NCBI GenBank assembly: GCA_900696525.1
Contig: CAADGL010000012.1
Span: forward strand, 62,001 to 126,000
Reading direction: 5' to 3'
Origin: an uncultured Planctomycetota bacterium
GTDB taxonomy: Bacteria; Planctomycetota; Phycisphaerae; UBA1845; Fen-1342
Length of the DNA stretch: 64,000 bases
Notes under the pieces: model-generated
Told to the model about the DNA's origin: nothing
What the model saw: the letters and a program-made list of their open reading frames with translations, nothing else
Database searches by the model: none
Made by a program: the position numbers and the translations under genes
Part shown: piece by piece, positions 3,139-16,625 of the stretch
Layout: every line of letters begins with the position of its first letter
How positions within the stretch are numbered: the first letter of the stretch is position 1

Positions 3139-6100
3139 ATGTCGAACCCGCGTATCGGGCGAGCCTGCACACGGTCTTTTGCGCTGTTCGTCGGCCTCGC
3201 ATTCGGCGTGCTGACTGGGTGCCCGCCTGTGCCTCAGCAACCCAACGTCCCCACGGACGAAGAGCCCAATCAAACCACTCAACCGCCGGCCGACTCCAAC
3301 AGCACGATCGACCGGCCGATTCCTCCGCCCGTCCTCGACGACGACACCACGACGGTGATCGGCGGCGGCGGCGGCGGCGCCAACCCGCCCGGGGGCGGGG
3401 GCGGCGGCGGCGGCGGGCAGGGCCAGCAGTTCATCTTCCTGAACGTCACCGCCCCGGGCGGCAACCTGCGCATCCGGCCAGGCGCAATCGTCGACGTCAA
3501 GTTCGAGTTCCAGGACTCGCAGGGCGCCGCTCAGAAAGTCGAGCTCCTCATCGCCCGCGACGACAACGCCGACAACCAGCCCGACGGCGTGCCCGTGCGG
3601 ATCATTCCGATCAGCGCCCAGGGCGGCAGCAACACCTTCAGCCTGAACACGACTACCATCAGCGACCTGCTCGTCAACGGCTACGCCCGGTTTGTGTTCG
3701 GCGTGCGCGTCACGACGCTCAACAACACCGTCTACCAGGACTACTCGAGCGGCTCGGTGGTGATCGACGACACGGCGCCGACGGCCACCTGGGTCGGCCC
3801 GCTTGACGACGCGCTGACCAACCGCGTGTCCTCGTGGCCGGTCACCGTCAGCACCACGGACAACTCGCCCCATACCGTCCGCGTCCTCCTCGACAAGGAC
3901 ACCACCCCGCTCAACGGTAACGAGTTCGAACTGATCGCCCCCGCGAACATCGCCGCCGGAACCAACACGACGACCTTCAGCCCGTCGCTGCTGCCCTTCC
4001 CGGTCGGCACCTATTACTACTATGTCATCACGTCCGACGGCATCGACCCGGCGGACGCCTTCTACGCCGAACGCTCCGCCGGCGACCCGATCAAGATCCG
4101 ACTGACGAACCGGCTGATCGGCAACGTCGATCTGGGCAACCTCGGCAACAACCTGGGCGGAATCTTCCAGGGCTTCAACTTCAACGACCTGGCCGGCTCC
4201 TCCATCCGCAGTGTGCCCGACCTCAACGGCGACGGCCGCAACGAGCTCGTCGTCGGGTCGCGCTTCGGCAAGCCGCGCCTGATCGAGAACAACGGCGTCG
4301 GCTTCGGCGAAGCCTACCTGATCTACGGCTCGGCGCAGCGCTTCACCGGCACGCGCACGCTGAACTCCGTCGGCACCACGACGCCCGGCCTGGTCTTCTT
4401 CGGCATGCGGACGCCGCGAACCGCCTCCATCGCTCCGCCCAACCAGAGCACGCGCTGGACCTCGGGCCTGTCCGACATCACGGTCATCCCCGACATGGAC
4501 GGCGATAACCTCCCGGAGCTGGTCTTCAGCTTCCCGCGCGTCGAGTCGATCAACCTCGGCGAGACCAACCCGACCATCCAGCATCCGGAGCTTGCGCCCG
4601 ACCTGCCCAGCATGGGCAATCTCGAATACAACGCGTTCTACGGGCTGTTCCCGGTCTGGCATCCGAACGAGGCGCAGCTCACCCGCGGCGGCATCATCAT
4701 CGTGTCGAGCCAGAACGAGATGCTCCAGAATCCGGGTCTGCTCAACCGCAAGTCGGACCGCGTCATCGACCTCCACGAGGTCGGCCAGCTCTTCACCAAC
4801 ATGAGCCGTCCTTCGCTGATCCCGTACATCCGCAACGCCCGCACCCGTCTCGATGGCGCCATGCAGTGCGCCGACTGCGACTTCCTGCCGCCCAACGGCT
4901 GCGACCCCGGCGATCCTGACGCCGATCCGCCGGCGCCCGGCAATTGCGGCGAAGACGAGTGCGTCCTGGCGCTCGGCGAGGAGCTGGACGGCCGCGAGAA
5001 GCTCCTGATCCGCTACGAGGTCTTCTGGGACGTGGTCTTCAACAATCAGGGCCCCGGCGGCTTCCACCAGCCGTGGACCGCCGTCCCCGCGAATCCGCCG
5101 CTGGCCAGTCCGCTCTCCTTCCCGTTCACGCCGCCGCCCTTCGGCGCACCGCCCTTCCCCTTCAGCTTCTACCCGAACCTGTGGGCGTTTGATTCCATGG
5201 GCAACGGCGGCGGAGCGTGCGGCGACATCAACGGCAGCGGGTGCGAGGTGACCAACCACTGGTTCTCGTGGTCGCCGACGCTGCCGGGCACGACGCTCGC
5301 GGGCACGCCGTCCTGGGCTACGCAGGGCAACCCGGTTCAGACGCTGCCCACGTGCTACCCGACCAATCCGTGCATCACGGACGTCGAGCCCGAGGACGGA
5401 CCCTGCCCGGCCCCGAGCGCTCCATGCACCAACCCGGCCCTTGATGTCGCCGCCGGCGGCAGCACGGCCTGGACCGGTTTCTACGGCCCGACGACTTCGG
5501 CCTACACCAGCAGCGCGGCGGGGACCTTCCCGTCGCCGACCGGGGCGCGCGTTCTCGGCCAGCGGGTCAACGACCGCTTCGGCACGGCGATCGGCTCCGA
5601 CGGCAACTGGCTGTATATCAGCGCTCCGGAGCGCACCGCGAACGACGCCCCGTACGGCTCGGACATCCCGAGCCTGCCCGGCACGCGCAGCAAGTCGGGC
5701 ATCGTCTACCAGCTCCGCACCAACGCTCCCCTGCCGCCGGACGGCATCACCCGCACGCAGCTCTGGATGGAGCGCGGCACGCGCCAGGAGCAGGACCCGA
5801 ACTTCCCGGATGATCCCAACGCGATCATCACGGTGGGCCTGAGCTGGCCGTACGTCGACGCCCAGCTCCCGAACCGCGTCGATTACACGATGCCCGTGCC
5901 GCACAACTACATCATCGAGTCCGTCGGCTCGACCCGCGGCAATCCCGAGATCGGCCGCGCCGATCGCCTCTTCGGCGATCCGCAGCAGCCGCAGTGCCCG
6001 CCGGGATACGACCCGGCGACCGACTCGCCCGACGCGTCGGCCATCAACTCCTACACGCCGTATCCCGCCGGAACCTCCGGCTACTTCGTCGACCGCACGC

Positions 6101-13668: not shown

Positions 13669-14913
13669 CTACAGCGGCTCGAGCCGCCGCAGCAGCAGCC
13701 CCAGCGCCGCCTGTGCGGCTCGCGTGCGGACCATCTCGCGCGGACTGTCGCCCAGCCGGATCGTCCGAGCCGCGGCACCATCCGCTGTCGCCAGCCCGAG
13801 ATACACCAGGCCGACCGGCTTGCCGCTCGAATCGCTCTGCGGGCCGGCGATGCCGGTTGCGGATAGGCCGTACGTCGCGTTCATTCGCTCGCGGACCTGC
13901 CGGGACATGATTTCGGCGACGGGCTCGCTGACGGCGCCGTGGCGCTGGATCAGCTCCCTCGGAACGTCGAGCCATTCTTCCTTGACGCTGTTCGCATACG
14001 CCACCACGCCCCCGACGAAGCAGCGCGAGCTGCCCGGCACGTCGGTGATCAGCTTGCCGATCAGCCCGCCCGTGCACGACTCCGCCACGGCGACCGTCTC
14101 GCCGCGCTCCCACAACCGCCGGCACAGGGCGTGTGCCAGCGTATCGTCGCCCGTGCCGAAGACGGCACCGCCGAGCCGCTGCCGCACGGCGGCTTCGGCC
14201 TCGTTGAGCATGCGTTCGGCGGCCTCGACCGTTTCGGCCAGCGCGTTGATGCGCACGCCGATGATGCTCATCTCAGCGGTGGTGCCGACTTCCGGGTTTC
14301 GTCCTCGCCGCATGAGGTCATGCAGGCGCTGACCCACATCGGCTTCCGTCAGGCCGTAGCTGTTCAGCCGGCGGCTGAGCAGGACGGGTCCCTCCTGCGC
14401 CCCGCGCAGCCGCGGCGCGACGCCGGCCGCGAACATCTCGCGCATCTCGATGGGCACGCCCGGCAGCGCAAAGCACGTCGCCCGCCCGAGCGGCATCACG
14501 ATGCCCGGGGCTGTGCCGACCGGGTTCGGCAGGGCCTCGCCGCGGCTCGGCCGCAGGGCCTGTACGACGTTTTGTTCGGGCATCTGGCGTCCGCGCGCCT
14601 CGAAGAACGCCCTGATCTGCGCCAGGCTCGCCTCATCACAGACGAGCGCGTCGCCGCTCACGTCGGCCAGGGCCTGCCGCGTCAGGTCGTCGTCGGTCGG
14701 CCCCAGCCCGCCGGTGAGGACCACGACGTCGGCCGCCGCCGCCGCCGTGCTGAGCACGTCGCGGAGCGCGGCCAGGTCGTCTCCGACCACGCACATGCGG
14801 GCGCAGCGCACGCCGGCCGCGGCGAGCTGCGCCGCGATCCAGGCGCTGTTGGTGTCGCGGGATTGGCCGAGGATCAGCTCGGTTCCGCTCGCGATGATCC
14901 AGGCGGTGCGCAT
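13669..14913 (-). CDS. cinA: CinA family protein (competence/damage-inducible, nicotinamide-nucleotide amidase type)
   Basis: MRTAWIIASGTELILGQSRDTNSAWIA...VVLTGGLGPTDDDLTRQALAD...VAVAESCTGGLIGKLITDVPGSS...LSATGIAGPQ. Confidence 0.93.
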   Translation of the reverse strand: MRTAWIIASGTELILGQSRDTNSAWIAAQLAAAGVRCARMCVVGDDLAALRDVLSTAAAAADVVVLTGGLGPTDDDLTRQALADVSGDALVCDEASLAQIRAFFEARGRQMPEQNVVQALRPSRGEALPNPVGTAPGIVMPLGRATCFALPGVPIEMREMFAAGVAPRLRGAQEGPVLLSRRLNSYGLTEADVGQRLHDLMRRGRNPEVGTTAEMSIIGVRINALAETVEAAERMLNEAEAAVRQRLGGAVFGTGDDTLAHALCRRLWERGETVAVAESCTGGLIGKLITDVPGSSRCFVGGVVAYANSVKEEWLDVPRELIQRHGAVSEPVAEIMSRQVRERMNATYGLSATGIAGPQSDSSGKPVGLVYLGLATADGAAARTIRLGDSPREMVRTRAAQAALGLLLRRLEPL

Positions 14914-15068
14914 GTGTCGTCGCATTTGCCCGGCCGGACGCGCCCGCATAGGCTCCCATGCGGCGCCGCCGGCAGCGGGCTGCGCCGTCAGTGTAGCATG
15001 CTTCCTTGTGTGAAGCCGCACACGGCGCCGCCCGCCGCTGTCACCGGGCGGGCGGCAGGGAGCTCCGC

Positions 15069-16112
15069 GTGCAACTCACTTCACCCTTTCACGACGCGCG
15101 GAGCTACACACCCGCGCAGATCGCGTGCGATCGCGGTGCGCACCCGCCGCTGCACTTCGGCGATCCGGCCGCCGAGTACGCGGCCGCGGCCGGCTCGGCG
15201 GCGCTGTTCGACCGCAGCGACCGCGGGCTGCTCGTGGCCCGCGGCCCGGATCGCGCCGGTTGGCTGCACGCCCTCGTCAGCAACGCCGTCAGGACGCTCG
15301 ACCCGCACGCGGGCAACTATGCCTTCGCGCTCGATCAGCGCGGGCGGGTGCTGTTCGACCTGAACGTGCTTTGCCTGCCGGACGTGCTGTGGCTCGACAT
15401 CGATCGCGCCGCCCTGCCCGCGGCCAGAGCGCATCTGGAGCGCTATCTGATCATCGAAGACGTGCGGCTCGCCGACGAAAGCGCCGCCTGGGCGCGCCTG
15501 GGCATCTGCGGACCGGCGGCCGCGGCGCTCGCGGTCGAGCGCGGCGCGGGCCAGGCTGCCGCAATGCCGGCGCTGGGCAGTGCGTGGGCCTCGGACGACG
15601 TGCTCCTTGTCCGGCACGACTTCGCCGGTCCGCCCGGGTTCGAGCTGTTCGTACCGCCGGGCCGGGCCGCCGCGATTTGGGACCAACTGGCGGGGCGGGG
15701 CGCGCGGCCGGCGGGCCTGACGGCGCTCGACGCGCTGCGCATCGAACACGGCATCCCCTGGCTGGGCCGCGACATCGACGACCAGGTCGTCGCGCCCGAG
15801 ACCGGCCAAGTCGAGCGCGCCATCAGCTATCACAAGGGCTGCTACCTCGGCCAGGAGATCGTCGAACGCATGCGCTCCCACGGCTCCATCGCCCGGCGGC
15901 TCGTGCGCGTCGAGTGCGACGCCGACGCCGATCTCGCACCGCCGCTGCCCCTGCGCCAGGCCGAACGCGAGGTCGGACGCCTGACCTCGCTGGTGCGCCA
16001 CCCGTGGCGGCCGGCGCGCGTCGGATTGGCGTATTTGCGGACGACGGTGGTCGAAACCGATGGGATCAACACCGGCGATCCTCCCCGTGCGGTGCGCGTG
16101 CTGCCTGGCTGA
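15069..16112 (+). CDS. ygfZ: YgfZ/GcvT-like folate-binding protein
   Basis: GCVT-fold features and diagnostic KGCYLGQEIVERM motif (ISYHKGCYLGQEIVERMRSHG). GTG start at 15069 inferred. Confidence 0.85.
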   Translation: MQLTSPFHDARSYTPAQIACDRGAHPPLHFGDPAAEYAAAAGSAALFDRSDRGLLVARGPDRAGWLHALVSNAVRTLDPHAGNYAFALDQRGRVLFDLNVLCLPDVLWLDIDRAALPAARAHLERYLIIEDVRLADESAAWARLGICGPAAAALAVERGAGQAAAMPALGSAWASDDVLLVRHDFAGPPGFELFVPPGRAAAIWDQLAGRGARPAGLTALDALRIEHGIPWLGRDIDDQVVAPETGQVERAISYHKGCYLGQEIVERMRSHGSIARRLVRVECDADADLAPPLPLRQAEREVGRLTSLVRHPWRPARVGLAYLRTTVVETDGINTGDPPRAVRVLPG

Positions 16113-16186
16113 CGCGATCCCGGGGGACGGGGGGGCAGACGGTCGCACCACGCCGTGCGTTCGCATCGCCGGCGGTGGCGGCAAGC

Positions 16187-16259
16187 GGGCCAGTAGCCCA
16201 ATGGCAGAGGCAGGGGACTTAAAATCCCCACAGTGCGGGTTCGAGTCCCGCCTGGCCCG
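16187..16259 (+). tRNA. tRNA with anticodon UAA (nominal Leu, codon UUA) but class I short-variable-loop cloverleaf
   Basis: Hand-folded: GGGCCAG acceptor / CTGGCCC, D-arm GCC-CAATGGCAGA-GGC, anticodon arm GGGGA-CTTAAAA-TCCCC, variable loop ACAGT, T-arm GCGGG-TTCGAGT-CCCGC, G73, no encoded CCA. All stems complementary. Confidence 0.9.
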
Positions 16260-16334
16260 TCGGAGCCCGCCGCGTTGCGGCGGGCGCCGGCAGCAGAGCA
16301 GGGGCGGCGTCGGCCACAGAAGAATGGAGAGTCG

Positions 16335-16625
16335 GTGATTCTCAGGACGATCCGGGGCCTGTTTCGGCGGACACCGGCACGGCCTCAGCCGATGTCGCCG
16401 TTGCACGCGCGCGTCGCCGAGATCATCGCCGGCGTGCGACCGCTGATTCGCGCGGATGGGGGCGACATCGACCTGCTGGCGGTCGATGACGACGGAACGG
16501 TGCGTGTCCGGCTGCGCGGCGCCTGCGCGGGCTGTCCGGCGAGCTTCATGACGCTGCAAGTGACGATCGAGCGGCGGCTGCGCGAGCAGGTCCCGCAGGT
16601 TCGAACCGTCGTCAACGTGCCGTGA
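16335..16625 (+). CDS. NifU-like C-terminal domain protein (Fe-S scaffold)
   Basis: VAEIIAGVRPLIRADGGDIDLLAVDDDGTVRVRLRGACAGCPASFMTLQVTIERRLREQVP; CxxC of NifU_C. GTG 16335 or ATG 16392 start. Confidence 0.88.
   Translation: MILRTIRGLFRRTPARPQPMSPLHARVAEIIAGVRPLIRADGGDIDLLAVDDDGTVRVRLRGACAGCPASFMTLQVTIERRLREQVPQVRTVVNVP

Follow-up and report, generated by a model that had tools for sequence, protein, structure and literature searches.

According to a 2023 review (PMC9976931), a large variable region is one of the elements of leucine identity that are conserved in all domains of life. For E. coli LeuRS, A73 is crucial and tertiary pairs between the D- and T-loops matter, while the long arm and the anticodon are not needed, and a truncated tRNA-Leu without the long arm stays active; in class II contexts, changing A73 to G73 gives serine identity (PMC9976931). 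Human mitochondrial tRNA-Leu(UUR), an organellar tRNA of different sequence from the one described here, is leucylated without a long variable arm, by way of A73 and A14 (PMC9976931). Short-armed tRNA-Leu is already mentioned in passing in the literature: one mycobacterial tRNA cluster is reported to include a tRNA-Leu(TAG) whose variable loop is short (PMC6582537). M. tuberculosis Leu-2, -3 and -5 are stated to have long variable loops (PMC11541572), which leaves room for Leu tRNAs without them. Our literature search, which had most subscription journals outside its range so that such papers may exist, found none on recurrent replacement of class II tRNA-Leu(UAA) and none dealing specifically with actinobacterial class I tRNA-Leu(UAA).

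The window (the whole 64,000-nt stretch of DNA analysed here) carries a class I tRNA gene with a UAA anticodon (Table 1). The preliminary description had presented it as a perfect 73-nt cloverleaf that combines a UAA anticodon with G73 and a variable loop of only 5 nt, and this is correct: ARAGORN calls a tRNA-Leu(taa) at 16186-16261, and the Rfam RF00005 match (E 3.6e-11, gathering score 29) covers the full model. The acceptor stem has 7 bp and the anticodon and T stems 5 bp each; the D-arm is TAGCCCAAT-GGCAGAGGCA, the anticodon arm GGGGA-CTTAAAA-TCCCC and the T arm GCGGG-TTCGAGT-CCCGC. When alternative folds were searched for, the minimum-energy fold was essentially the tRNA cloverleaf. With its five-nucleotide variable loop the gene falls into class I (4-5 nt), and it differs from canonical bacterial class II tRNA-Leu both in that loop, where the class II form of the sister families has an arm of 15-19 nt, and in having G73 rather than A73. 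It follows the consensus of class I tRNA-Leu(UAA) from relatives, Actinobacteria and phages in its D-arm (CCCAA..GG.AGAGG.A), its anticodon loop (YTTAAAA) and its short variable loop ending in U48, and departs from it at A73.

Table 1. Features of the tRNA gene and its neighbours, in window coordinates
Feature	Coordinates	Strand	Evidence or remark
Class I tRNA-Leu(UAA) gene	16187..16259	+	ARAGORN; Rfam RF00005, 62.5 bits; homologue comparison
Anticodon TAA (reads UUA)	16220..16222	+	ARAGORN, position 35 of gene starting at 16186
Variable loop ACAGT, 5 nt	16230..16234	+	Replaces the 15-19 nt arm of sister-family class II tRNA-Leu(UAA)
Discriminator G73	16259..16259	+	A in all 23 family relatives carrying the short form and in all other class I homologues read
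cinA, conserved family neighbour	13669..15021	-	Pfam PF02464, PF18146; synteny
ygfZ-like (GCV_T domain), upstream, conserved family neighbour	15006..16112	+	Pfam PF01571; synteny
nfu-like (NifU C-terminal domain), downstream, start codon uncertain, conserved family neighbour	16329..16625	+	Pfam PF01106; synteny

Two other identities were considered and rejected. An allo-tRNA or selC-like tRNA would be expected to have extended stems and a long arm, while here the acceptor stem has 7 bp, the T and anticodon stems 5 bp and the variable loop 5 nt, the only extra being a possible C-1:G73 pair. A tRNA-Trp or tRNA-Ser does not fit an anticodon that is UAA rather than CCA or the missing long arm; moreover, Trp(CCA) and four Ser tRNAs of class II are encoded elsewhere in the genome.

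The genome assembly (3.64 Mb in 22 contigs, 93% complete, with the gene inside a 787-kb contig) contains 43 tRNA genes. The four Leu tRNAs with anticodons CAA, CAG, GAG and UAG belong to class II and have A73; the only gene with a UAA anticodon is the short-armed class I one, present in a single copy. There is one LeuRS gene, of bacterial type. An additional class II tRNA-Leu(UAA), which the preliminary description had suggested looking for, was found neither among the 43 tRNAs read nor by a class II pattern search of the genome; at 93% completeness, and with further expected tRNAs such as Asp GTC absent as well, the assembly could have missed such a gene, a possibility that would require the same miss in all 26 other family genomes searched. 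The expectation that UUA would be very rare in so GC-rich a genome was borne out: it accounts for 124 of 449,916 codons, or 0.28 per 1000, in predicted genes of at least 200 aa, and occurs in 107 of 1077 predicted genes (counts from 1.66 Mb of genome pieces, with genes predicted by a simple codon-model script rather than a published gene finder).

We consider it highly probable that the gene encodes the chromosomal UUA-reading tRNA-Leu of this bacterium, in a class I form that replaced class II tRNA-Leu(UAA) in the family. This reading draws on the structure of the tRNA, the mutually exclusive distribution of the two forms, synteny, A73 in the relatives and aliphatic residues at UUA positions; charging by LeuRS and conversion of the gene in place are what we infer from these and from published work.

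A short-form pattern, GG.AGAGG.A....ACTTAAAAT, occurs in 18 of the 27 genomes of the family (the window's included) but in none of the 34 that represent the order's other families, and once slight variants of the anticodon arm are allowed the short form is present in 24 of the 27, that is, in 23 relatives as well as the window's own genome. The class II tRNA-Leu(UAA) pattern shows the reverse, with 0 of 27 family genomes and 31 of 34 sister-family genomes (Fisher p <1e-13 for each of the two contrasts). Two family genomes (G022 and G023, 93% completeness) have neither pattern, through missing sequence or a further variant.

The same exclusivity holds at a larger scale. In an even sample of 297 genomes across the phylum, the short form was seen in 27 and the class II pattern in 205; a single genome had both, where independence would predict 18.6 (p = 7e-14, a value that overstates the significance because it treats related genomes as independent). 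The looser class II pattern gives some chance matches in a backward-read control, which works against the observed exclusivity. Short-form genomes are found in ten families (f1, f11, f12, f21, f32, f51, f61, f68, f69 and f100), four of which (f11, f12, f32 and f61) contain both forms, so there was either more than one switch or a reversal. Within a single genus (g163), one genome (G172) has the class II pattern and another (G203) the class I pattern. The one genome with both patterns (G133, locus L295) has a class I copy carrying the variant GGTAGAGG, and this copy may be an extra mobile one, because the variant is shared with a plasmid copy (L039). The best reading of the distribution is that the class I form has recurrently replaced class II tRNA-Leu(UAA).

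The preliminary description had also suggested checking whether the locus is conserved in relatives, and it is: the short-armed tRNA of the 23 relatives often lies beside cinA, ygfZ and nfu, with at least one of these genes near it in 15 of them, so within the family the class I gene is vertically inherited. Three class II loci of the sister families, read with 5-kb flanks, have none of cinA, ygfZ and nfu beside the tRNA, so synteny does not decide between conversion in place and gain.

Outside the family, most of the matches listed in a scan of public genomes were actinobacterial; Planctomycetota, Deltaproteobacteria, Parvularcula and Acidobacteria MAGs contributed a few. The actinobacterial class I tRNA-Leu(UAA) (Mycobacterium, Nocardia, Arthrobacter, Microbacterium) likewise has the D-arm TAGCCCAA..GGCAGAGGCA, the loop CTTAAAA and a variable loop of 5-6 nt ending in U, and likewise stands in for the class II gene; unlike the window's tRNA, it has A73, a different acceptor stem (GCCCC-type) and different T stems. 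In 35 genomes reached through their short-form loci, mostly Actinobacteria, there was no convincing class II UAA tRNA and one weak match. Thus UUA appears to be read by a short-armed tRNA, with no class II counterpart found, across the whole family, in scattered lineages of the phylum and in many Actinobacteria. The preliminary description had seen a departure from the class II, A73 norm for tRNA-Leu, and with respect to the textbook form this stands; the short loop, however, is ordinary in the family and in many Actinobacteria, and G73 alone is private to the window's tRNA.

The short form is also carried by mobile elements. Phages of Prochlorococcus, Pseudomonas, Acinetobacter, Rhodococcus and Streptomyces match it (one sequence was read from each of the first four groups), as do actinobacterial plasmids. 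These tRNAs share the body plan of the window's and have A73 in the sequences read, but they lie on phages, on plasmids and in tRNA clusters rather than serving as sole chromosomal decoder, and their anticodons include UAG, AAG and CAG as well. A Nonomuraea plasmid (L040) has class I tRNA-Leu genes with AAG and CAG anticodons at 4995-5068 and 5709-5783, and an Acinetobacter phage (L034) has one with a UAG anticodon at 484-556; short-armed Leu tRNAs are therefore not limited to UUA.

How the family came by its short form can be approached through the stems, which vary among class I copies, while the D-arm and variable loop are nearly invariant across phyla. The sister-family class II tRNA-Leu(UAA) (L190-L219) has near-identical acceptor (GGGCNAG), anticodon and T arms and the same A14, A15, G18G19, A20a, G21 loop, and differs from the window's tRNA in its 15-19 nt variable arm, its D-stem GGCG/GACGC and its A73. 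Between the family's class I and the sister class II tRNAs, the mean number of differences is 3.9 of 14 acceptor, 2.0 of 10 anticodon-stem and 1.1 of 10 T-stem positions. The corresponding figures are 8.1, 3.9 and 3.3 against class I tRNAs of the public-scan matches listed, and 7.2, 3.1 and 2.2 against class I tRNAs of other families of the phylum. That the family's stems are closest to those of the sister-family class II tRNA suggests conversion in place, in which the long arm would have been lost and the D-stem remodelled from TGGCGGAA..GGCAGACGC to TAGCCCAA..GGCAGAGGC, presumably through G9 to A9, G12-C23 to C12-G23 and G13 to C13.

Horizontal acquisition, in which the native class II gene gave way to a short form that came from a phage, a mobile tRNA array or Actinobacteria, would differ from our main explanation in origin only. 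It has a substantial chance of being right, if one short of even: the D-arm and variable loop also occur in phages and in tRNA arrays on plasmids, there combined with UAA, UAG, AAG and CAG anticodons, and these two elements are nearly identical across phyla, while the acceptor, anticodon and T stems of the family are much nearer to those of class II tRNA-Leu(UAA) in the sister families than to those of the other class I groups read. On sequence comparison, we favour conversion of the class II gene in place over acquisition; a chimera or convergence of the stems is possible. More tentatively, class II tRNA-Leu(UAA) may have been converted in place in several independent events that all led to the same D-arm and variable loop, with the long arm evolutionarily dispensable for the UAA isoacceptor alone. 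What makes the case interesting is that one isoacceptor has switched recurrently between class II and class I, each form excluding the other, and that G73 is private to this genome; lineages with the short form offer natural material on LeuRS recognition, on the change from class II to class I, and on why the UUA reader in particular is affected.

The short form keeps the class II tRNA-Leu loop A14, A15, G18G19, C20, A20a, G21, A22, together with U48 (numbering is by the usual alignment and is inferred). Because bacterial LeuRS is independent of the long arm and the anticodon, and because the D/T-loop core is shared with class II tRNA-Leu, a class I tRNA-Leu(UAA) with A73 would be expected to be charged by LeuRS in the same way as class II, through A73 and the D-loop/T-loop core. 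Counting against our main reading, the G73 of the window's tRNA removes the main leucine determinant.

The residues encoded by UUA fit leucine. Relatives alone gave too few sites, and UUA sites were compared with paralogues and PDB homologues as well, the PDB examples being picked from recognisable families rather than at random. Eleven sites could be aligned, several of the weaker ones poorly, and at every one of them the residue in the closest homologue is L, V, I, M or A, with Leu at only 4; at CUG control sites, Leu makes up 58% and Leu/Val/Ile/Met/Ala/Phe 86%. The site in a prepilin-like protein is Leu in all paralogues and homologues, that in a POT-type transporter is Leu, and that in AgcS is Leu in 6cse. 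In DnaG, residue 216 is Ile in 2au3 and Leu in 1dd9, and residue 341 is Ile or Val; the FolC site is Val or Ile, and four weaker alignments give Leu, Ile, Val and Ala. An NtrC-type regulator has Met and Ile, and Lys in one further homologue, which, together with the small number of sites, several of them weakly aligned, and of leucines among them, counts against the main reading. UUA codons in this genome thus align with aliphatic residues, Leu being the commonest, a result in keeping with Leu and unfavourable to Ser, Trp, Arg or Gln.

The only real anomaly of the tRNA is G73. A73 is present in 135 of 136 distinct short-form sequences and in L376, with all 23 family relatives included, and the sole G73 is the window's. 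It is either a recent substitution or an assembly error. An error at this position, with a true A73 and nothing unusual within the family, would be compatible with our main explanation, and is possible if rather unlikely: it would take a single transition in one 22-contig draft assembly, all 23 relatives have A73, and one of them (G001) follows it with the same TCG, but the gene is otherwise undamaged, has perfect pairs and lies inside the 787-kb contig.

If G73 is real, leucylation should be weakened and the tRNA would probably be a poor leucine acceptor, although a weakly charged UUA reader would be tolerable because UUA is very rare; such a copy would be a natural test of how much leucylation is needed under these conditions. 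A more radical possibility is a changed identity, as the preliminary description had proposed with Trp as an example, the tRNA being charged by the synthetase of Ser, Trp, Arg or another G73 family and UUA being reassigned or ambiguous in this genome. G73 occurs in the window's assembly only, the tRNAs with G73 in the genome are those for Arg, Asn, Gln, Glu, Ser and Trp, and LeuRS is excluded from E. coli tRNA-Ser by G73 (PMC9976931). We find this very improbable, since the features that those enzymes need are absent: the long arm for SerRS, CCA for TrpRS, C35 for ArgRS, and the anticodon bases for Gln, Asn, Asp and Glu (PMC9976931). The discriminators of the relatives and other homologues speak against it too, as do the continued use of UUA in genes and the aliphatic residues at the aligned sites.

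The further suggestion of a non-canonical role, or of an unexpressed pseudo-tRNA or tRNA-like element, is scarcely credible. We saw no sigma-70-type promoter match nearby, which is weak evidence in its favour. The cloverleaf is perfect and scores 62.5 bits; the gene is conserved and syntenic in much of the family and therefore no decaying pseudo-tRNA; and it is the only decoder found for a codon in use in about a tenth of predicted genes.

With our main reading retained, two small features surround G73. TCG follows it directly, so CCA is not encoded in the gene. On the other side of the acceptor stem, the C at -1 (16186) could, in the predicted fold, pair with G73 and lengthen the acceptor stem to 8 bp, and such a pair might move the RNase P cleavage site, as in tRNA-His.
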